Shown here: positions 15,369-23,780 of the stretch, one piece after another
How the letters are laid out: the number at the start of each line of letters is the position of its first letter
How positions within the stretch are numbered: position 1 is the stretch's first letter
Source of the DNA: Tessaracoccus palaemonis
GTDB taxonomy: Bacteria > Actinomycetota > Actinomycetes > Propionibacteriales > Propionibacteriaceae
Length of the DNA: 64,000 nt
Assembly (NCBI RefSeq): GCF_019316905.1
Contig: NZ_CP079216.1
Coordinates: 310,001 to 374,000 of the forward strand
Reading direction: 5' to 3'
Translations under genes and position numbers: made by a program
Notes under the pieces: model-generated
What the model was told of the DNA's origin: nothing
Databases searched by the model: none
Seen by the model: the letters and a program-made list of their open reading frames with translations, nothing else

Positions 15369-15735
15369 TCGCTTCGCTTCGAGGCGTTTCGACAGGCTCA
15401 ACGACCCGGTTCCCTGAGCTTGTCCCTCGGGTCCCTGAGCTTGTCGAAGGGCGCCGAGCGCAGCGAGGTGGCTGGCTAGGCCCTCTCGCTTCGCTTCGAG
15501 GGGTTTCGACAGGCCTGTGCTGAGCTTGTCGAAGTGCTCAACGATCCGGGTCCCTGAGCTTGTCTTCTCGGTCCCTGAGCTTGTCGAAGGGCGCCGAGCG
15601 CAGCGAGGTGGCTGGCTAGGCCCTCTCACTTCGTTTCGAGGCGTTTCGACAGGCCTGTGCTGAGCTTGTCGAAGTGCTCAACGATCCGGTTCCCTGAGCA
15701 TGCCTTCCCCGGTTCCCTGAGCTCGTCGAAGGGCG
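15369..15735. repeat. Triplicated family A repeat array
   Basis: Occupies the gene-free stretch 15351-15808. About three tandem 115-125 bp units each run from TCGCTTCGCTTCGAGG through TTTCGACAGGC, a TTGTCGAAGTGCTCAACGA segment and TTCCCTGAGCTTGTC to GCCGAGCGCAGCGAGGTGGC. Units differ by short deletions. No coding sense; each unit can fold back on itself. Confidence 0.8.
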
Positions 15736-15808: not shown

Positions 15809-16705
15809 ATGAGCAATCCCTTCCGTCCGGAGCTGTGGATGCCCGTCGAGGGCTTCGAGTTCACCGACATCACGTACCACCGCGCCAAGGACGTGCCGGC
15901 GGTTCGCATCGCCTTCGACCGGCCCGAGGTGCGCAACGCGTTCCGGCCTCACACCGTCGACGAGCTGTACACGGCGCTGGAGCACGCGCGCACGTCGTCG
16001 GACATCGGCTGCGTGCTGCTGACGGGCAACGGGCCGAGTGAGAAGGACGGCGGCTGGGCGTTCTGCTCGGGCGGCGACCAGCGAATCCGCGGCCGCGCCG
16101 GCTACCAGTACGCCGAGGGGGAGACGTCCGAGAGCGTCGACGCTGCCAAGCTCGGCCGGCTGCACATCCTCGAGGTGCAGCGGCTGATCCGGTTCATGCC
16201 GAAGGTGGTGATCGCCCTGGTCAACGGCTGGGCTGCGGGAGGCGGACACTCGCTGCACGTCGTCTCGGACCTCACGCTTGCGTCCCGCGAGCACGCGAAG
16301 TTCAAGCAGACCGACGCCGACGTCGGCTCGTTCGACGCTGGCTACGGGTCGGCATACCTCGCCCGCCAGGTAGGGCAGAAGTTCGCGCGCGAGATCTTCT
16401 TCCTCGGCGACGTGCACGACGCCGAGGACGCCCACCGCATGGGCATGGTCAACCGCGTCGTGCCGCACGAGCAGCTCGAGGACATCGGCCTGGAGTGGGC
16501 AGCGAAGATCTGCGGCAAGTCCCCGACGGCGCAGCGGATGCTGAAGTACGCGTTCAACGCCATCGACGACGGGCTGGTCGGCCAGCAGATCTTCGCCGGC
16601 GAGACCACCCGCCTGGCGTATATGACCGACGAGGCCGTCGAGGGTCGCGACTCGTTCCTGGAGAAGCGGGCCCCCGACTGGTCGAAGTTCCCCTACTACT
16701 ACTAG
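15809..16705 (+). CDS. menB: 1,4-dihydroxy-2-naphthoyl-CoA synthase (naphthoate synthase)
   Basis: 298-aa crotonase-fold enzyme that closes the second ring of the menaquinone head group (succinylbenzoyl-CoA to dihydroxynaphthoyl-CoA). Signatures: FDRPEVRNAFRPHTVDEL, WAFCSGGDQRIRG, the NGWAAGGGHSLHVVSDLTLAS oxyanion-hole region, DVGSFDAGYGSAYLARQVGQK and the C-terminal WSKFPYYY. Length is normal for actinobacterial MenB. Its last codons (TTC CCC TAC TAC TAC TAG) coincide with an att-like core used by the adjacent integrative elements. No other men gene is in the window. Confidence 0.95.
   Translation: MSNPFRPELWMPVEGFEFTDITYHRAKDVPAVRIAFDRPEVRNAFRPHTVDELYTALEHARTSSDIGCVLLTGNGPSEKDGGWAFCSGGDQRIRGRAGYQYAEGETSESVDAAKLGRLHILEVQRLIRFMPKVVIALVNGWAAGGGHSLHVVSDLTLASREHAKFKQTDADVGSFDAGYGSAYLARQVGQKFAREIFFLGDVHDAEDAHRMGMVNRVVPHEQLEDIGLEWAAKICGKSPTAQRMLKYAFNAIDDGLVGQQIFAGETTRLAYMTDEAVEGRDSFLEKRAPDWSKFPYYY
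16688..16704 (+). other. att-like core 1 (menB 3' end)
   Basis: GTTCCCCTACTACTACT at the end of menB recurs as GTTCCCGTACTACTACT (18615-18631) and GTTCCCCTGGTACTACT (22108-22124). Read as attL of the first of two tandem integrative elements; inference from spacing and neighbours. Confidence 0.6.
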
Positions 16706-16710
16706 AGGCC

Positions 16711-17031
16711 CTAGTGGGAGCGTGATTCGAGCGGGTTAGTCCGCAGGGAGTCCGCAGAAACGACCGAGGACCGCATCAGATCCGCAGCTGCGGACCGGGT
16801 GCGGTCCTCTGCTGTCGGCCACAGATGGGCGTAGGTGTTCAGCGTCGTGGTGGCCGATGCGTGACCGAGAGCGCGCTGCACGGTCACGACGTCGCAGCCG
16901 GCCGCGATCAGCCCCGAGGCGTAGAAGTGCCGCATGTCGTGAGGTGTCACGCTGAGCCCTGCGGCCTCCCGGGCGCCGCTGAACAGGTGTGGACCCCAGG
17001 CGACGCCGGCGGGCCCTCGCCCGCTGAATCG
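16711..17031 (-). pseudogene. Truncated tyrosine recombinase (integrase), element 1
   Basis: Only the C-terminal catalytic part survives. The frame opens after a TGA at 17032-17034 and reads GAREAAGLSVTPHDMRHFYASGLI, then VVTVQRALGHASATTTLNTYAHLWP. The HxxR pair, LGH and nucleophile Tyr (NTYAHL) are present, but the N-terminal DNA-binding domain and first catalytic Arg are gone. It sits six bases after menB, at the att core, as integrases of site-specific elements usually do. Compare the second fragment at 19500-19745. The stretch 17035-17262 upstream of it shows nothing I can identify. Confidence 0.8.
16738..16757 (+). repeat. Arm-type direct repeats AGTCCGCAG x2 (element 1, left)
   Basis: Two AGTCCGCAG copies 11 bp apart (16738, 16749), 34 bp from core 1. 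The same pair with the same 11-bp period recurs at 18491. Probable integrase arm sites. Confidence 0.55.
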
Positions 17032-17262
17032 TCAGCCCGCGAGCGAACCTGTGACCGCACGCTGAGGCCCGACAATCCGACCACCCCGGACCTGCTCGGG
17101 ATCCTGGAACACCTCTACCGGCCGTGCGTCCATCCGGTTCAGATGGCGTCTGTGAGCTCGTCGGCGCTCCTGGTGCGGTGCCGCTGCCAGGGCGATCAAG
17201 CCAACCTTCGGCGTCTGGGCAGGACGCCGCTACGGACCACACATCAACCAGGAGTGAACCCC

Positions 17263-17580
17263 ATGCCCATCAACCACACACGCACATGCCGACAGCACCT
17301 TTCCCGGATCGCGGAGAAGGACGGGAAGAACGGAGACCCGCTGCTGCACTGCTCGGACTGCCATCACTACGAAGTGCTCCGCGAAGCCAAGGATCGACCG
17401 GCCGTCGACGAGTCCGAGGCGGCCCAACCCCGAACCCTCTACTTCTGCCGTGCGCACTACAACCCCGTGACCTTCCAGGGTCGCGGGTGCCGGGAGTGCG
17501 GCGCGGAGAAGTGCAAGAGACAGACCCCCAAACGTCGACCTGACGGCGACGACAACGACTACCGAAGGAGGATCAAGTGA
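17263..17580 (+). CDS. Cys/His-rich putative zinc-binding protein
   Basis: 105 aa, unrecognised. Cys and His residues are arranged in three clusters: HCSDCHHYE, FCRAHYN and CRECGAEKCKR, suggesting one or two zinc sites. The tail is strongly basic then acidic (KRRPDGDDNDYRRR). The start ATG 17263 is set by AGGAG eight bases upstream. It overlaps a following short frame by GTGA. It lies within the first menB-linked element. No HNH catalytic pattern is present, so I do not call it a nuclease. Confidence 0.55.
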   Translation: MPINHTRTCRQHLSRIAEKDGKNGDPLLHCSDCHHYEVLREAKDRPAVDESEAAQPRTLYFCRAHYNPVTFQGRGCRECGAEKCKRQTPKRRPDGDDNDYRRRIK

Positions 17581-17657
17581 CCGACGACCAGGAAGCCAGG
17601 GAGAGGGAACCACGTCGTCGTCGGTCAACGCCGAGCCGTCGGGCCTCGTCGACCTGA
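17577..17657 (+). CDS. Short basic peptide or remnant of a coupled gene
   Basis: GTG 17577 overlaps the previous stop (GTGA) and has a strong AAGGAGG five bases upstream, so translation re-initiation is expected. The frame ends after 26 residues (VTDDQEAREREPRRRR then Ser/Arg-rich), just inside the following hairpin. It may be a decayed gene or a leader peptide. Confidence 0.3.
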   Translation: MTDDQEAREREPRRRRSTPSRRASST

Positions 17658-17696
17658 CCCAGGGGGGGGGGAGACCCCTACCCCCTGGTCAGGTCG
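17650..17696. repeat. Long inverted repeat with a ten-G run
   Basis: A 10-bp perfect stem (CGACCTGACC with its complement at 17687-17696) plus an inner CAGGGG/CCCCTG. It encloses a run of ten G (17662-17671) and ACCCCTACCCCC. It is placed before a terminase-small-subunit-like gene, where actinophages often keep G-rich cohesive-end or packaging sequences. That role is a guess; a terminator is the simpler reading. Confidence 0.45.
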
Positions 17697-17742
17697 CCGC
17701 TCCGGCATTAGCGCCATTCTCTCTCGTAAGAAACAGGTCACC

Positions 17743-18016
17743 ATGACATCACCCAGGAAACCCTCTACGAAGCCCGCTGCGGGGCGTCTGAGCGTCGCTG
17801 CACGCGGCACACGCAAGGAGCTGGAGGCTGCCCGCGAGACCCTGGCGTCCGCTCTGGACGGGGGGGGAGATCCCGCCCTACAAGATCGGGCAGGCGCTCC
17901 GCGAGCTGCTCGAGCTGCACGATGAGCTGTCCCGCGCTGATCCGCTCGACGAGATCACCGAGGCGGCCGCGACGACGGACGAGCCTTTCAGCCTTGACGG
18001 TATTGCCTGGCCCTGA
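17743..18016 (+). pseudogene. Frameshifted phage terminase small subunit-like gene
   Basis: ATG 17743 starts MTSPRKPSTKPAAGRLSVAARGTRKELEAARETLASALDG, but a run of eight G (17860-17867) shifts the frame. Removing one G restores EIPPYKIGQALRELLELHDELSR and a tail ending in GIAWP with TGA at 18014-18016. The short basic N-terminus plus helical Arg/Glu-rich body resembles small terminase subunits of actinophages, by pattern only. Either a decayed gene or a slippage-controlled one. It is the only phage-like cargo left in element 1. Confidence 0.4.
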
Positions 18017-18281
18017 TGGGCACGTGCTGGGCCCGCGCATCGCATAGAAACACGTAAGGTGGAGTCCTTGCGGGTCTGGCGATGGCGCTGCTGTCGTTTA
18101 GCGGTGCTGGGCCAAAGCGCGGCCCAGCTGCACGACGAACTCGCGCCGGCGACGAGGTGGTGAACAACAACAGGGGGTATCCTCGACGCGAGGACGGCAG
18201 CCAGCCCCCCAGGCCCATAAGCCACGGGCAGGCCCAGCCGTCCTTCTTGTTTGTTTCGACGCACATCGCCGCGCCGCCTTC

Positions 18282-18287
18282 TACCAT
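18282..18287 (+). promoter_or_regulatory. -10 hexamer TACCAT, leaderless start
   Basis: TACCAT, seven bases, then ATG 18295. The preceding 18017-18281 shows no gene I can support. Confidence 0.45.
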
Positions 18288-18294
18288 CAATGGC

Positions 18295-18492
18295 ATGGAT
18301 CTTGACCTAGATTGCCCAGAGTGCGGACGCCCGCTCAAAGTGACTCTCGACGACGTGGCCAAAGGCCGCACAAAGAACTGCCCCAGTGGTCACCAGGTCA
18401 AGCTTGTCGACAAGTCGGGAGGGGCACGAGATGCCCAACGATCGCTCGACAAGCTTGACGATGCCCTCAAGCGACTGGGACGCTCGCGATAG
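18295..18492 (+). CDS. Small zinc-ribbon-like protein
   Basis: 65 aa. CPECGRPLKV and CPSGHQVKL give a CxxC...CxxxH set suited to one zinc ion, followed by a Lys/Asp-rich amphipathic helix (SLDKLDDALKRLGRSR). ATG 18295 is chosen because the ribbon begins six residues later and a TACCAT hexamer precedes it; an upstream extension has no composition like a protein. Function unknown. It ends one base before the right-arm repeats of element 1. Confidence 0.55.
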   Translation: MDLDLDCPECGRPLKVTLDDVAKGRTKNCPSGHQVKLVDKSGGARDAQRSLDKLDDALKRLGRSR

Positions 18493-18510
18493 TCCGCAGA
18501 AAGTCCGCCA
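18491..18510 (+). repeat. Arm-type direct repeats (element 1, right)
   Basis: AGTCCGCAG (18491) and AGTCCGCCA (18502), 11 bp apart, match the pair at 16738-16757 and lie about 105 bp from core 2. Confidence 0.55.
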
Positions 18511-18614
18511 GAGCACTCAAACAGAACTGATCTGACCAACGGTGCTCACGGCATACGGGCTTGCCAACTCATGGTTCTCGCAGTGCTCAACCCCACCTCA
18601 ACCCAGGGGCAGGG

Positions 18615-18631
18615 TTCCCGTACTACTACTG
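18615..18631 (+). other. att-like core 2 (junction of two elements)
   Basis: GTTCCCGTACTACTACT differs from the menB core by one base. It would be attR of element 1 and attL of element 2. Confidence 0.55.
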
Positions 18632-18674
18632 ATCTGGCATGTTCTCGAAGATCAGAGGCGGTATTGGTCGCCAG

Positions 18675-18693
18675 GTGTGGCAGAGAGGTCGCA
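18675..18693 (+). repeat. Arm-type repeats (element 2, left)
   Basis: GTGTGGCA (18675) and AGGTCGCA (18686), again 11 bp apart and 43 bp from core 2. They match ATGTGGCA x2 at 21985-22003, though the second copy is weak. Confidence 0.4.
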
Positions 18694-18754
18694 AGAACAG
18701 CGACCCGGCGAGAGGGGCAGCAGTTCGGTTGGCGGTTTTGTCGGTGGTGCCGCC

Positions 18755-18760
18755 TACGGT
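18755..18760 (+). promoter_or_regulatory. -10 hexamer TACGGT, leaderless start of TIR gene
   Basis: TACGGT, then CTTGCCT, then ATG 18768; no RBS. Confidence 0.45.
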
Positions 18761-18767
18761 CTTGCCT

Positions 18768-19490
18768 ATGAGTAGATGCACGGCGCCGGTCCAGGGCCAT
18801 CGAACTTCCAGTGGTGCTGCCGCCTGCCCGGTCCACGGTGGCAGGGGGTACGGTTACTATTCGCCGACGCCGTCCTACTACTCCCCGCCGAGTTATTCGG
18901 CGCGAAGCGGAGGCGGCGGCACAGGTAGCAGCGGGGGGTCAGGCAGCGGTAGGACTCGGCCGAAGTGGTCGCCGAGCAGTTCGCCCCTCACCTACAGCCC
19001 TGAGCAGGTACGGGCGCTGACGCCGTACCGACGCGCGGTGGAGTCGGTGGGCTTGCAGCCTGAACTTCGCGACATCTTCCTGTGCCATGCCTGGGATGAC
19101 CGGCGAGGTGCCGCGGCAGAGCTGAACGACCTGCTCGAAGCCGCGGGGGTCTCGGTGTGGTTCAGCGAGAAGGACATTCTGCTCGGCCAGCCATTCATGC
19201 GCGAGATTGACCGTGGTCTCGCAAAGTCGCGGGTTGGCGTCGTGCTCATCACCCCTGCGCTGTTAGAGCGCGTCAACAACCGAGGGGTCTCGGACAAGGA
19301 GCTCTCTGAACTTCTGGCCCGCGACCTACTGATCCCGGTCGTGCATGAGACGACCTACGACGAGGTCCGGCGGATCAGTCCGCTACTCGGCTCGCGGAAC
19401 GGGTTGGACACATCGGCAGACTCGATGGAGTCCATCGCGACCAAGATCGCTGAGCTGGTGGCTCTGGATGACGAGCTTGAGCGCGTCTGA
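18768..19490 (+). CDS. TIR domain protein with Cys/His N-terminal motif and Gly/Ser/Tyr-rich linker
   Basis: 240 aa. Residues 1-26 carry CTAPVQGHR...CPVHGGR, a possible small metal site. Residues 27-75 are low-complexity Tyr/Ser/Gly/Pro. The TIR domain spans about 101-232: RDIFLCHAWDD (box 1), GVSVWFSEKDILLGQPF (BB-loop region), VGVVLITPALL and a KELSELL segment. Glu178 or Glu181 in that segment could be the NADase glutamate. TIR proteins in bacteria commonly cleave or convert NAD in anti-phage defence. Located on the second menB-linked element, just inside core 2. Start by leaderless promoter; longer frame rejected. Confidence 0.85.
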   Translation: MSRCTAPVQGHRTSSGAAACPVHGGRGYGYYSPTPSYYSPPSYSARSGGGGTGSSGGSGSGRTRPKWSPSSSPLTYSPEQVRALTPYRRAVESVGLQPELRDIFLCHAWDDRRGAAAELNDLLEAAGVSVWFSEKDILLGQPFMREIDRGLAKSRVGVVLITPALLERVNNRGVSDKELSELLARDLLIPVVHETTYDEVRRISPLLGSRNGLDTSADSMESIATKIAELVALDDELERV

Positions 19491-19499
19491 CCGGACGTT

Positions 19500-19745
19500 T
19501 CGCGACCGACCTTCGTCGCAAGAACCGCTGCCGCTGTTCCCCGATGCAGTCGCCCGGGGCTTGTCCTCGGCGCTCGGCCACAGGTGGGCGTAGGTGCTCA
19601 GCGTGGTAGTCGCGGAGGGGTGACCCATCGCTCGCTGGACGGTAACGGCGTCGCAGCCGGCTGCGATCGATCAGTCCGCTGGCGAAGTAGTGCCGCAGTT
19701 CATGGAGCTTGAAGTCCAAGCCGGCGCCGATGCGGGTGCGGGAAG
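19500..19745 (-). pseudogene. Truncated, frameshifted tyrosine recombinase, element 2
   Basis: LDFKLHELRHYFASGLI is in one frame and GCDAVTVQRAMGHPSATTTLSTYAHLWPSAEDK in another. They are separated by a duplicated GATC (GATCGATC at 19665-19672); removing four bases rejoins them into the same pattern as the fragment at 16711-17031. The N-terminal domain is missing. It occupies most of the gap 19491-19841; the rest (19746-19841) is the promoter region of the next cassette. Confidence 0.75.
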
Positions 19746-19841
19746 CCGGCGCGGAGGTTTGCTGAGAGTTGCAGCCCCGGTGTCGATTTTGGTACGTGTT
19801 TGGGTAACATCGTTGGTGTGAAGGCAGTAGGTTGATTCCCC

Positions 19842-20654
19842 ATGTACCCGAAGCGTGAAGTCTTCCCCAAATCCCCGCTGGCACTTGTCGCAGCAGAGAT
19901 CCGGTTCAGCGACGCCCCTCGTCTGCGCCAGTCGGAGACGCTCGACGCCGTCGCAGTCGCTGTGGAGTCCCTTCTGCCTGTCCACGAGCAGGTCCAGGGT
20001 GCGGTCAACATCCAGGTGGTCAACGGGCAGCCGCAGGTGCAGGTGGTTACCGGCCGGGTCATGAAGAACGTAGACAGCACGGCGGCCTTGTCGATCTTCC
20101 CCGACAGGCTCTCCTTCGAGACTACCGCCTACGCCGAGTACGAGACGTTCAAAGCGAACGTCGTGGCCTGCGCTCAAGCGCTGGTGAGTGCCGGTGTCGC
20201 TCCAGCCGTCCAGCGGATTGGTCTGCGGTACTTGGATGAGATCCGCGTGCCTGATGCGAAGGTTGTCGACGCTCGGCTGTGGAGTGATTGGGTCGACCAA
20301 CGCCTCGTGGACCACTTGCAGTTGGGTCCTGACGGCGCTCCGGTCGCCCGGGCGGACGGCACGATCTCGTACGACCTCGGGCATCACAAGGGTCTCAACT
20401 TCAGGTTCGCCGCCCTGCCGGGCGGAGCCGTCGTGGTGACCGGCAACCTCGTACGCCGACCGTTCGTGGAGAACGTGCCGGTCTTCGTCCTAGACTTCGA
20501 CGGCTATCAAGACTTCTCCGGGCAGAAGGCGATGCTGCTGAGCACTGATGCGGTAGCACTAACTCTTGACGCCGTTCATGGACCTGCCGGCGAGACGTTC
20601 CAGAACGCAATCACCGACCAAGCTCGCGAGCTCTTCCGAGGGGAGAAACCATGA
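19842..20654 (+). CDS. TIGR04255 family protein
   Basis: 270 aa, the usual length of this sporadically distributed family. N-terminal FPKSPLALVAAEIRF and central QRIGLRYLDEIRVPD, DHLQLGP and FRFAALPGGAVVVTGNL match the family's beta-rich pattern. C-terminal LDFDGYQDF and HGPAGETFQNAITDQARELF. No enzymatic residues are recognised. It is first gene of a tight three-gene set: its stop overlaps the next ATG. Codon use is less GC-biased than the core genes, in keeping with transfer. Biochemical role unknown in the whole family. Confidence 0.8.
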   Translation: MYPKREVFPKSPLALVAAEIRFSDAPRLRQSETLDAVAVAVESLLPVHEQVQGAVNIQVVNGQPQVQVVTGRVMKNVDSTAALSIFPDRLSFETTAYAEYETFKANVVACAQALVSAGVAPAVQRIGLRYLDEIRVPDAKVVDARLWSDWVDQRLVDHLQLGPDGAPVARADGTISYDLGHHKGLNFRFAALPGGAVVVTGNLVRRPFVENVPVFVLDFDGYQDFSGQKAMLLSTDAVALTLDAVHGPAGETFQNAITDQARELFRGEKP

Positions 20655-21286
20655 TGAAGACTGTGGCACGGGCCGTTGGTGTGAGTCGCAGCGAGAACAT
20701 CAGGGCTTACGAACCGCCGACATCGACGAGCGCGCTCTCGATCAGTGCCGACTGGCTCCGCACTGATATTGACTCACTCCATGACGGGATGCGTGATCTC
20801 CACGAGAAGACCCGTTCGCTCGACCTTGACGAGCGCGCTCACCAGAAGGCCACCGCGAGCGATGTGCCAGCACTGCTGGACGAGCTCGCGTTCACACGAG
20901 GCATGTCGTGGTCGGACATCGCCGCTGCAGCGCACGTCAGCGTTTCGGCAATCCGGAAGTGGCGCAAGGGGGGAACCGCCACAGCGGACAATCGCGAGCG
21001 ACTGGCGCGAATCGCATCCTTCCTCGACCTCATGGAGGAGAAGGGCGTGGCCGATCCGGCTCAGTGGATGGAGATGGCTCTGCCGCTCGGGCCGGGCTAC
21101 TACATTCGCCCGATCGACCTGTTCGTCGCAGGGCACGCTGAGTCACTCATTGAGTGGTTCGAGCAGCGGAGCAGGTTGGAGACCATCCTGGACGCCGTTC
21201 TCCCGGGGTGGCGTGATCGCCGAAGCGACGTCGAGGTCTTTGTGGACACGGATGGGCAGAGGTCCCTTCGAATGCGAGCTGAGTGA
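20651..21286 (+). CDS. HTH (Xre-like) protein, partner of TIGR04255 gene
   Basis: 211 aa. Residues about 68-115 form an HTH: LLDELAFTRGMSWSDIAAAAHVSVSAIRKWRKG. The C-terminal half contains MALPLGPGYYIRPIDLFVAGHAESLIEWFEQR, a helical pattern that recalls the toxin-binding region of Xre/ParS-type antitoxins. It overlaps the TIGR04255 stop (ATGATGA), so expression is coupled. Could be the cassette's regulator or antitoxin; not proven. Ten bases separate it from the third gene. Confidence 0.65.
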   Translation: MMKTVARAVGVSRSENIRAYEPPTSTSALSISADWLRTDIDSLHDGMRDLHEKTRSLDLDERAHQKATASDVPALLDELAFTRGMSWSDIAAAAHVSVSAIRKWRKGGTATADNRERLARIASFLDLMEEKGVADPAQWMEMALPLGPGYYIRPIDLFVAGHAESLIEWFEQRSRLETILDAVLPGWRDRRSDVEVFVDTDGQRSLRMRAE

Positions 21287-21295
21287 CACCTGCAC

Positions 21296-21961
21296 ATGGA
21301 TTCGATCGAAGCCGACGACCTCTACGAAGAGCGGGGCGCGGTTAGTTTTAGTCGGCCGATCCTCCAGGGCGACATCTTCGAGGGCGTTGTGTTGCCTGGC
21401 TTCGGTGACGAGCCGAAGCGAGTTCAGATCGTTACGCACCCATGTTCGATGCGACGAGGACCTGTCAGCAACGAACGTATCCAGGTCGCCCCGGTGGACT
21501 CGTACCAGAAGGTCGGCGACTGGAACGGCCACGGCCGAGTCATGCCGTTGCCGGATCTGCTAAGCGACGGAAAGTGGCACGCTACCAAGTTCGTCGACCT
21601 GACGGCGGTGGCCGCGCCCGAACTTACGCTGGATCGTCGCATCGCTTCGCTCTCCCACCCTGGGATTCACGTTCTTCAGCAGCGGCTGGTCTGGCACAAC
21701 ACGCGGCTCACACTGGACCTCGCCAAGTTCCGGCAGCAGTCCGCGCCGATCCTCGCCGAGGCCGAGATGCAGGAGCTCTGGATCGACGCAGTCCTTGACG
21801 AGGGCGCTCGCACTGCCGACGCCGTTGAGGCGGCTGGCGTCCAGTTCCAGGCGTGGCTCAGTGAGGACGACAACCGCCGCCGTGCAGAACTCGATGCCGA
21901 AGCCAACCATGCGAAGCTCCGACGCGAGACGCGAGCAGCAGCTCTCGAACGTCGCGGTTAG
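21296..21961 (+). CDS. Uncharacterised protein, third gene of TIGR04255 cassette
   Basis: 221 aa, not recognised. Residues 24-28 QGDIF, then VQIVTHPCSMRRG (His48, Cys50) and IQVAPVDSY form a compact beta pattern. From memory this resembles small proteins with a 'GDIF...SxxCD...APV' layout of unknown function. The C-terminal third is a long charged helix (DDNRRRAELDAEANHAKLRRETRAAALERRG), probably coiled coil. Invariant-looking His/Cys could be catalytic or metal-binding. Co-transcribed with the HTH and TIGR04255 genes. Confidence 0.55.
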   Translation: MDSIEADDLYEERGAVSFSRPILQGDIFEGVVLPGFGDEPKRVQIVTHPCSMRRGPVSNERIQVAPVDSYQKVGDWNGHGRVMPLPDLLSDGKWHATKFVDLTAVAAPELTLDRRIASLSHPGIHVLQQRLVWHNTRLTLDLAKFRQQSAPILAEAEMQELWIDAVLDEGARTADAVEAAGVQFQAWLSEDDNRRRAELDAEANHAKLRRETRAAALERRG

Positions 21962-21984
21962 GCGGCCTAGTGATGGGCGTTCTG

Positions 21985-22003
21985 ATGTGGCAAAAATGTG
22001 GCA
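21985..22003 (+). repeat. Arm-type direct repeats ATGTGGCA x2 (element 2, right)
   Basis: Two exact ATGTGGCA copies with an 11-bp period (21985, 21996), about 105 bp before core 3, mirroring the layout of element 1. No gene in 21962-22232. Confidence 0.55.
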
Positions 22004-22107
22004 GGCCAGCACGTAGCGGCAGATGACGCCCGAGGTGTTTGCGCAGGTCAAGCCAGCAATCCCAACAGCGACCAACACCGACCGGTCACCTCAAACGACC
22101 GTGACGG

Positions 22108-22124
22108 TGTTCCCCTGGTACTAC
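22108..22124 (+). other. att-like core 3 (right end of element 2)
   Basis: GTTCCCCTGGTACTACT, 15 of 17 identical to the menB core and followed by GAGG as menB is by AGAGG. Proposed right boundary of the island. Confidence 0.5.
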
Positions 22125-22232
22125 TGAGGCGGGGCCCCAAGGCCAGGGCGCAGCGGAATGTGGTCGCGACCACCAGCAGGTTGAGCACCCTGCCCGGTCG
22201 ACGTTGCCCCCGGGACCTCTCCCTGCGTCGGA

Positions 22233-23780
22233 CTACTTCCCGGGTATCTCGATGCGGGTGACATCCGTCGCGTTGCCGGCGGAGTCCAGGCCGTAGAGGC
22301 AGTACGTCGCGGGCAGGTCGGACGCCTCAAGCGTGAGGGGGACGATGAAGAAGTCCTGGAACGTGGTCGGGTCGTCGCAGTCCACCTCGTCAGGTGCCCC
22401 CCACGTGAAGCGGACGGTCTGGATCTCGGGCGGCACCAGGTGCGGCCGGACGATCATCGTGCCACCACCGATGTCCTCCACGTCGGCGGCCGCGGCGAAG
22501 ATGGGCGGCGTCCGGTCGACGTCGAAGAGGACCGAGGCGGCCCCGGCGTAGTCATTGCCGGAGACCGCGCAGAAGAGGAACCGCCCCTCTGTTTCGGGAA
22601 GGTCGACACTGATCTTCGCGCCGACCAGATCCCACTCCCCGGCGGCCTCGGGCAGCTCCTGAGGTTCCGCCGAGGCATAGGTCGTCGCCGAGGTGCAGGC
22701 GGAGCCGTCGCCGAGCGGTACGAGGGCTGTGCGGACCGTGCCGGCCGTCCGACCGACCAGGCTGACCTGCGGGGTGGCTCCGGTCGCGTCGGGAACGTCC
22801 CCGCCCTGGAACGTGCCGCCTCCGGTCTCGGCCCAGACGCTGGAGTCGGGCAGCGGGCACGCCCCGCCCGTCCGGAACACGCCGGCGTCGTCGAAGCACT
22901 TGCCCAGCCCGGCCACGCTCTGGGCGTAGCTGGTCTCCTCGACCATTGACGCGCCGTCAGCGGTCACCTCGCAGGGATGGTTCATCGAGCACGCGCCGCC
23001 GTTGGCTGCGGTACCGCCCCAGGTGGTGGTGTTGATCATGGCCACGACCCCGGTCGGGTTGCCGTCGGTATCCACGCTGAGAACGGGCGAGCCGCTGGAG
23101 CCCTGGATGATGCCGGGGCAGTCGTTGGACCAGGCGTCGAACCACAGCCAGCGTCCCTCGATCAGGGTGTGCTGCGCGCCGAGGGTGCAGTCACCGCGGC
23201 GAAGGACCCACTCCTCCTGGTCGAGGTCCTGGACGGGGACGCCGACGTTGACGACATCCTGCCCCGCGAGCGGCTCAGCGTCCGCGATCTTCACCGGGCG
23301 GATGCCGAGGTCCTCCAGCTCGCCGAGGGTGGCGTCGAGCCGGACGATGCCGGTGTCGGTATGCCGCATGGTGGAGTACTCCAGCTTCACGACATCGACG
23401 CTGAGCGTGGCGTCCAGGTTTCCCTCGGCGGCAAGGAATTCCGCGGTGCCGAACCAATCGAGCTCGTGGGTGGTGGTCTGCGGGGAGCGGCCGACATCCC
23501 CGATGCAGTGACCGTTGGTGAGGACGTAGGCCGGGCCCGCCGTGGCGCCGGTGTCGATCAGGGTGCCCGAACAGTTGGAACCGGCGTTCAGGGAGACCAC
23601 GCCACTGAAGGCCGCCAGGTCTGCCAGCGGCAGCGGGTCCGCCGGGGTGGCTGCGACCGGGGTGACCGGGGTCGCCGACGGTGCCGGCGTGATGGGTGCT
23701 GGGGGTGTGACGCCGGTGCACCCCGCGAGCAGGAGGAGGGCGGCTGCGGCTGCGCTGCCGCACACGGACTTCAAGGCCAT
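22233..23780 (-). CDS. Secreted trypsin-like serine protease lipoprotein
   Basis: 515 aa. The signal peptide ends in a lipobox LLAGC (Cys21), followed by a Pro/Thr-rich spacer. The S1-type triad is visible: His91 (LTNGHCIG), Asp142 (HTDTGIV), Ser229 (GSSGSP). Eight or more Cys in the second half suggest disulfides. Residues about 340-515 form beta-rich domains resembling extracellular sandwich modules. ATG 23780 is chosen for the signal peptide; the open frame upstream is noncoding. Surface-anchored protease, perhaps sensing or degrading extracellular proteins. No inhibitor or substrate gene adjacent. Confidence 0.85.
   Translation of the reverse strand: MALKSVCGSAAAAALLLLAGCTGVTPPAPITPAPSATPVTPVAATPADPLPLADLAAFSGVVSLNAGSNCSGTLIDTGATAGPAYVLTNGHCIGDVGRSPQTTTHELDWFGTAEFLAAEGNLDATLSVDVVKLEYSTMRHTDTGIVRLDATLGELEDLGIRPVKIADAEPLAGQDVVNVGVPVQDLDQEEWVLRRGDCTLGAQHTLIEGRWLWFDAWSNDCPGIIQGSSGSPVLSVDTDGNPTGVVAMINTTTWGGTAANGGACSMNHPCEVTADGASMVEETSYAQSVAGLGKCFDDAGVFRTGGACPLPDSSVWAETGGGTFQGGDVPDATGATPQVSLVGRTAGTVRTALVPLGDGSACTSATTYASAEPQELPEAAGEWDLVGAKISVDLPETEGRFLFCAVSGNDYAGAASVLFDVDRTPPIFAAAADVEDIGGGTMIVRPHLVPPEIQTVRFTWGAPDEVDCDDPTTFQDFFIVPLTLEASDLPATYCLYGLDSAGNATDVTRIEIPGK

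Follow-up and report, generated by a model that had tools for sequence, protein, structure and literature searches.

Directly downstream of menB in Tessaracoccus palaemonis lie two short genomic islands in tandem, bounded by three copies of a 17-bp core. They were analysed in a 64,000-nucleotide stretch of contig NZ_CP079216.1 (positions 310,001 to 374,000), which is called the window here and to which all coordinates refer. The menB gene (15809..16705, + strand) encodes 1,4-dihydroxy-2-naphthoyl-CoA synthase (NCBIfam NF006186, 575 bits against a cut-off of 378), and its reading frame stays open with the islands present, retaining the last codons FPYYY and the stop. Core 1, GTTCCCCTACTACTACT (16687..16703, + strand), is at once the end of menB and the left end of island 1. 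Core 2, GTTCCCGTACTACTACT (18614..18630, + strand), is shared by the two islands, closing island 1 on the right and opening island 2 on the left. Core 3, GTTCCCCTGGTACTACT (22109..22125, + strand), is the right end of island 2, where the TGG variant of an FPWYY-type menB is followed by the host flank GAGGCGG. Measured from core to core, islands 1 and 2 are 1927 bp and 3495 bp long, and the GC fraction of the island stretch is 0.62-0.67 against 0.65-0.76 in its surroundings.

A first-pass annotation made from the sequence alone had proposed three att-like 17-mers here; all three are present and unique in the genome, although its positions were each off by one from the starts at 16687, 18614 and 22109. 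The core pattern GTTCCCNTRSTACTACT, with two mismatches allowed, matched the window three times against 0.01 expected, a count reached in none of 100 shuffles. With one mismatch allowed, the whole genome of 3,204,344 bases gave the same three matches and no others (control 0). The 17-mer is all that cores 2 and 3 share with the menB end, and the preceding menB codons are not included. A tRNA gene as the target was considered and set aside; none adjoins the cores, the nearest being 2.2 kb away.

Both islands contain part of a tyrosine integrase at one end, in agreement with the first-pass annotation, which had listed two truncated integrases. Remnant 1 (16711..16989, − strand) is a C-terminal piece with the N-terminal part absent and matches Pfam PF00589 (Phage_integrase, 5.4e-10). 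Its best foreign match among 198 genomes of the family was the integrase of a metagenome-assembled genome, Propionibacteriaceae bacterium UBA7704 (DLGC01000015.1; genome G140, locus L208), with 76% identity over residues 2-77 and 71% over 87 amino acids. Remnant 2 (19533..19720, − strand, upper end approximate) was detected by its similarity to remnant 1 (19533-19673). It is also a C-terminal piece without the N-terminal part, is split over two frames, and finds its best-scoring match in the integrase of Nocardioides sp. PW10 (locus L257; 86% over 43 amino acids). The T. palaemonis genome has four Phage_integrase matches: two full-length integrases elsewhere and not near menB, remnant 1, and one other fragment.

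The integrase of G140 (367 amino acids in an open frame of 382 codons) lies tail-to-tail with menB, and 26 bp separate the end of its match from the core in menB. With this protein as the query, a scan of named genomes returned 312 relatives, from which 80 loci were kept; menB lies downstream of the integrase in five of them, L208 itself, L209 (Intrasporangium calvum), L226 (Nocardioides sp. TRM66260-LWL), L243 (Gordonia spumicola) and L257, where the distance to menB is 2 kb. Among 391 genomes of the order, 30 loci were found, and besides G140 three had menB (L302/G324, L307/G403 and L289/G246, refetched as L319, L320 and L318). The menB-sited intact integrases are therefore eight (L208/G140, L209, L226, L243, L257, L318, L319 and L320), all of about full length and inside one end of the element, with the frame of L319 running on at its C-terminal end. 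Complete elements between repeated cores could be delimited in L243 (9142 bp), L257 (10378 bp) and L318 (16590 bp); for L208, L209, L226, L319 and L320 the flanking DNA examined showed no right end. The identity of menB and the presence of intact integrases at the same spot bear out the earlier proposal that the 3' end of this gene is the target.

Other genes serve the wider family. Across the 80 named loci the convergent gene within 4 kb is ychF in 27, yajQ in 21 and menB in 5, and the remaining 27 loci were classed as other; one ychF and one yajQ were checked and pass the NCBIfam cut-offs. In an integrase tree of 79 rows, from which four integrases shorter than 290 amino acids (L212, L228, L280 and L283) had been dropped beforehand, the eight menB rows cluster with L237 (95/90) and the yajQ rows with one other row (100/100), and the ychF rows are spread over several branches. 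The first-pass annotation would have counted the integrase fragments at unrelated sites with other cores against its proposal; integrases of this family do occur at ychF and yajQ, but these fall outside the menB group of the tree. A tRNA-Tyr gene lies 610-1150 bp beyond the integrase in 8 of the 80 named relatives, and in L223 the integrase match itself contains a tRNA-Lys called by ARAGORN. No match of at least 60% to the G140 integrase was found in phage records or in 5000 plasmid records, the matches listed reaching at most 31% and 32%.

Attachment sites of the lambda type consist of a core and arm sites. The menB islands are alike in having paired repeats on both sides inside the cores, which are candidate arm sites. 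The left pair of island 1 consists of two copies of AGTCCGCAG, 11 bp apart and 35 bp past the core (16738-16746 and 16749-16757, + strand), and the right pair of AGTCCGCA and AGTCCGCC (18491-18498 and 18502-18509, + strand). Island 2 has a right pair of two ATGTGGCA copies, again 11 bp apart (21985-21992 and 21996-22003, + strand), and a left pair, GTGTGGCA and AGGTCGCA (18675-18682 and 18686-18693, + strand), that is degenerate as first described, with 5 of 8 positions matching between copies; it resembles the left arms of L257 and lies at a like distance from the core. In both window islands the right pair begins some 140-143 bp ahead of the core end; with L257 and L243 included the range is about 137-143 bp, and in L318 the distance is about 160 bp. 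Left pairs start at +35 in island 1, at +43 to +47 in most elements and at +56 in L318, steps that we read as near one helical turn.

When 9-mer pairs with at least 8 matches were counted 15-100 bp past the core (one flank shorter than 200 nt was dropped), pairs spaced by 11 bp occurred in 8 of the 11 element flanks, compared with 3 of 110 menB flanks lacking an integrase. This contrast is tempered by the sampling: the element flanks span several families and the controls a single one, and elements related to each other do not count as independent. Spacings of 8-10 and 12-15 bp gave no pair in the 11 element flanks; those missing an 11-bp-spaced left pair are L257, G139 and island 2 of the window. 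This enrichment and the equal distance of the right arms from the core sustain the earlier observation that the two islands share one arm geometry with unlike arm sequences.

The same arms recur beside intact integrases, where the first-pass annotation had suggested looking for them: (A/G)GTCCGCA in G140/L208, L209, L318 and L319, and GTGGCA in L257 and L320. Other arms are TGTGCAC in L226, the tree neighbour of L209, and GTCGGCAG in L243. Arm class tracks the integrase branch in part: the tree pairs L257 with L320 (100/100), both of the GTGGCA class, and L318 with L319 (100/99), both of the GTCCGCA class. In arms, integrase and layout, island 2 resembles the L257 element. The right core of L257 is followed by the fixed motif described below and a AGTCCGCAAG pair, so that a second element, of the other arm class, seems to begin there in tandem with its left end. 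Both tandems seen, in the window and in L257, join unlike arm classes.

The fixed motif, GCAGGTCAG-like or GCAGGTCAGAG-like with two mismatches allowed, was noted on the element side of 7 of 11 elements, starting 16 bp past the core. Within about 50 bp it is also present in 2 of 114 family flanks (G154 and G006) and 8 of 30 Nocardioides flanks, and arm-like pairs are present in 6 of those 30 (L322, L329 (weak), L341, L342, L344 and L346). Five menB flanks with arm-like pairs or the motif were fetched at greater length; three (L371, L374 and L375) hold C-terminal integrase remnants 0.3-1.8 kb from menB and two hold none. No integrase was found within 9.7 kb in G385 or within 5.0 kb in G154, both of which have left-end-like menB flanks.

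An uninterrupted menB flank, the first check that had been suggested, is seen in the closest relative, G010, whose menB is 96% identical. There menB reads into TGAGGCGGG..., the window sequence past core 3, and the match spans the junction over 108 bp at 91.7%, ending at 22216. A menB match was found in 37 of 39 genomes of the genus, the window's own included, and 36 other flanks were fetched; the exact core pattern is present in 124 of the 198 genomes of the family, and flanks were fetched for 113 of these 124. Relatives with three cores and no island, which would have spoken against insertion, were not seen in the 36 same-genus flanks or the 198 family genomes. The only forward near-match to the core in the 36 flanks is in G033, with 3 mismatches and 11.3 kb away. 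Two exact core copies occur among the 198 genomes in G000, G097 and G151 only, those of G151 on separate contigs. Integrase relatives lie at most 3.1 kb from menB in 3 of 114 family flanks (G000 (twice), G139 and G140); these 114 comprise 37 of the same genus and 77 others, and vary in length, some being under 3 kb. An integrase 4.8-6.1 kb from menB in G090 was set aside, as it is 25% identical.

We consider it very likely that two islands were inserted successively at the menB 3' end by tyrosine-integrase recombination and that both have since decayed. Crossover would take place at the 7-bp TACTACT (16697-16703 in core 1), which covers the final pair of Tyr codons plus the initial T of the stop codon and is the interval common to all cores compared. 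Core 1 reads CCCCTAC TACTACT AG. Core 3 reads CCCCTGG TACTACT GAGGCGG, its left part fitting an FPWYY menB and its right part a host of the G010 type, and its TGG against the TAC of the related host G010 helps to confine the exchange to TACTACT. PWYY was read in 30 of 30 menB loci of Nocardioides, the genus of G403, these being the 30 best-scoring of 182 genomes with menB and not a random sample. Each island's attP would have supplied identical terminal codons together with a stop of its own, leaving the MenB protein unchanged. Each integrase would have bound its own arm repeats, the 11-bp-spaced pairs inside both ends, together with the shared core, which could let two arm classes occupy one site in tandem. 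Later decay would have removed most of the integrase from both islands, and presumably any transfer genes as well, while both att sites of each were kept. Since either order of insertion gives the same sequence, which island came first cannot be told from it.

Several observations weigh against this account. The remnants are short, about 87 and 43 amino acids, and the best scores of remnant 1 are those with ychF- and yajQ-sited integrases (120-121 bits, against 116 for L208), so that it is assigned to the menB group by its place and its arms. The left pair of island 2 (6/9) is by itself not above background, and an unrelated 8/8 pair in island 1, CTCAACCC, 11 bp apart and 45 bp before the core end, indicates that single arm-like pairs can arise by chance. 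G010 belongs to another species, and window positions 22217-23570 do not align in it. Finally, the tree places L237 within the menB group, yet no menB was found in its locus and its target was not found either.

A single island from 16704 to 22125, with the core at 18614 a chance or secondary site and the second integrase piece a duplicated fragment, is improbable in our judgement. The two remnants are indeed alike in DNA (135 bp at 78.5%), and no genome was seen with just one of the two islands. However, core 2 is flanked on its left by right arms of the AGTCCGCA class and on its right by degenerate left arms of the TGTGGCA class, and both classes are known as separate elements elsewhere, with a like tandem in L257. 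Hardly credible is that ordinary recombination duplicated part of the menB 3' end and carried nearby genes along: such an event is found in G097 (L130), a candidate island that was rejected because the second of its two cores, 2.26 kb apart, is preceded by the last part of menB, whereas in cores 2 and 3 the likeness to the menB end is limited to the 17-mer, without the codons before it, and arms and integrase remnants flank them.

In the DNA examined, TrwC relatives, which we take to be MobF relaxases, are present in five of the eight intact menB elements (L257, L318, L319, L320 and, at 34% identity only, L208), and a relative of an excisionase-like helix-turn-helix (HTH) protein in six of the eight, the query's own included. 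In L208, L319 and L320, where no right end was found, TrwC may lie outside the element, above all in L208. TrwC is not special to menB, being present in 25 of the 80 named loci. The open reading frames (ORFs) scanned encode a TrwC relaxase-helicase, an N6 methylase and a MamI-type nuclease in L257; TrwC, a transposase-type rve protein, two P450 matches and an AraC regulator in L318; and a Toprim/AAA protein in L243. Among these 17 ORFs there is no gene for a type IV secretion system (T4SS). With TrwC in five of eight, the intact menB elements are probably mobilizable, and they would move by conjugation with a helper. We put forward only tentatively, as somewhat doubtful, the broader idea that a single actinomycete integrase group, with many mobilizable members that carry a MobF relaxase, uses the menB 3' end widely as its attachment site, and that one crossover combined with differing arm specificity allows unlike elements to stack without excising each other.

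Relaxase genes without T4SS genes liken the intact elements to integrative and mobilizable elements (IMEs), the menB relaxase differing in being TrwC; according to a 2017 review (PMC5704250), MobF relaxases were not known from any canonical IME. Within the window islands neither TrwC nor excisionase relatives were found, and no relaxase family was seen among the island ORFs chosen for Pfam scanning, an IME being marked by a relaxase or an oriT. Both islands instead have the features of a cis-mobilizable element (CIME), with att sites retained (the left arm of island 2 degenerate), truncated integrases and transfer genes presumably once present. As in the CIME accretion and tandem decayed elements described in that review (PMC5704250), integration genes are lost or broken, attL and attR are kept, and the members share one target; here both members are decayed and two arm classes are seen within one integrase group. 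The islands also resemble Islander/TIGER islands and SGI1 in thdF (PMC5704250) in the short direct repeats at a gene 3' end, the integrase at one end, the restored gene and the sporadic presence, and differ in their target, menB.

The kind of island is therefore known, and the menB site and its integrase family appear to be undescribed. No report of a menB or naphthoate synthase att site was found in the literature searched, although it may be listed in the Mageeney 2020 island set, and the TIGER/Islander database of about 1.75 million islands (PMC12424338) may hold menB islands unremarked. In the portions accessible, menB, ychF and yajQ are not in the main text of PMC12884075 or PMC10111431, menB and ychF are not in PMC5704250, and menB is not in PMC11389934. 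The findings point to menB as a recurring docking site for mobile DNA in actinobacteria and add a protein-coding attachment site whose breadth is explained by where crossover occurs, in codons for a Tyr-Tyr end that is conserved. The integrases, which combine a single core with several arm classes, could be used to study how arm specificity controls tandem insertion and cross-excision. The elements also point to relaxase-bearing elements in actinomycetes, a phylum for which many relaxases and few T4SSs were reported (PMC3158045).

The cargo of island 2 begins with a gene for a ThsB-like TIR protein (18768..19490, + strand; PADLOC PDLC00424, 6.8e-102, profile positions 1-234 of 234; Pfam TIR_2, 2.3e-17). 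PADLOC, run on six island proteins, returned one ThsB and no ThsA, and thus no Thoeris system. The TIR gene refines the layout first proposed, as it sits between the left att site and the integrase; L257 likewise has a 2-kb gap with genes there. A slot of about 0.3-2 kb in this position, between left att site and integrase (or its remnant) and often containing genes, was noted in L257, L318, L371, L374, L375 and the window (18695-19490). Beyond remnant 2, a cassette of three genes on the + strand (19842-21961) consists of gene A, of the TIGR04255 family (19842..20654; NCBIfam TIGR04255, 5.8e-35), gene B, encoding an HTH protein (20651..21286; Pfam HTH_3, 2.6e-5), and gene C (21296..21961), without a Pfam, PADLOC or NCBIfam match. 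PADLOC named none of the three, bar a weak mad1 match on gene B, and TIGR04255 is not named in the literature searched. The cassette is conserved, with the same gene order in 11 of 12 other family loci. Just 5' of menB, a tandem array with a 140-bp unit is present in 2.4 copies (15396-15735).

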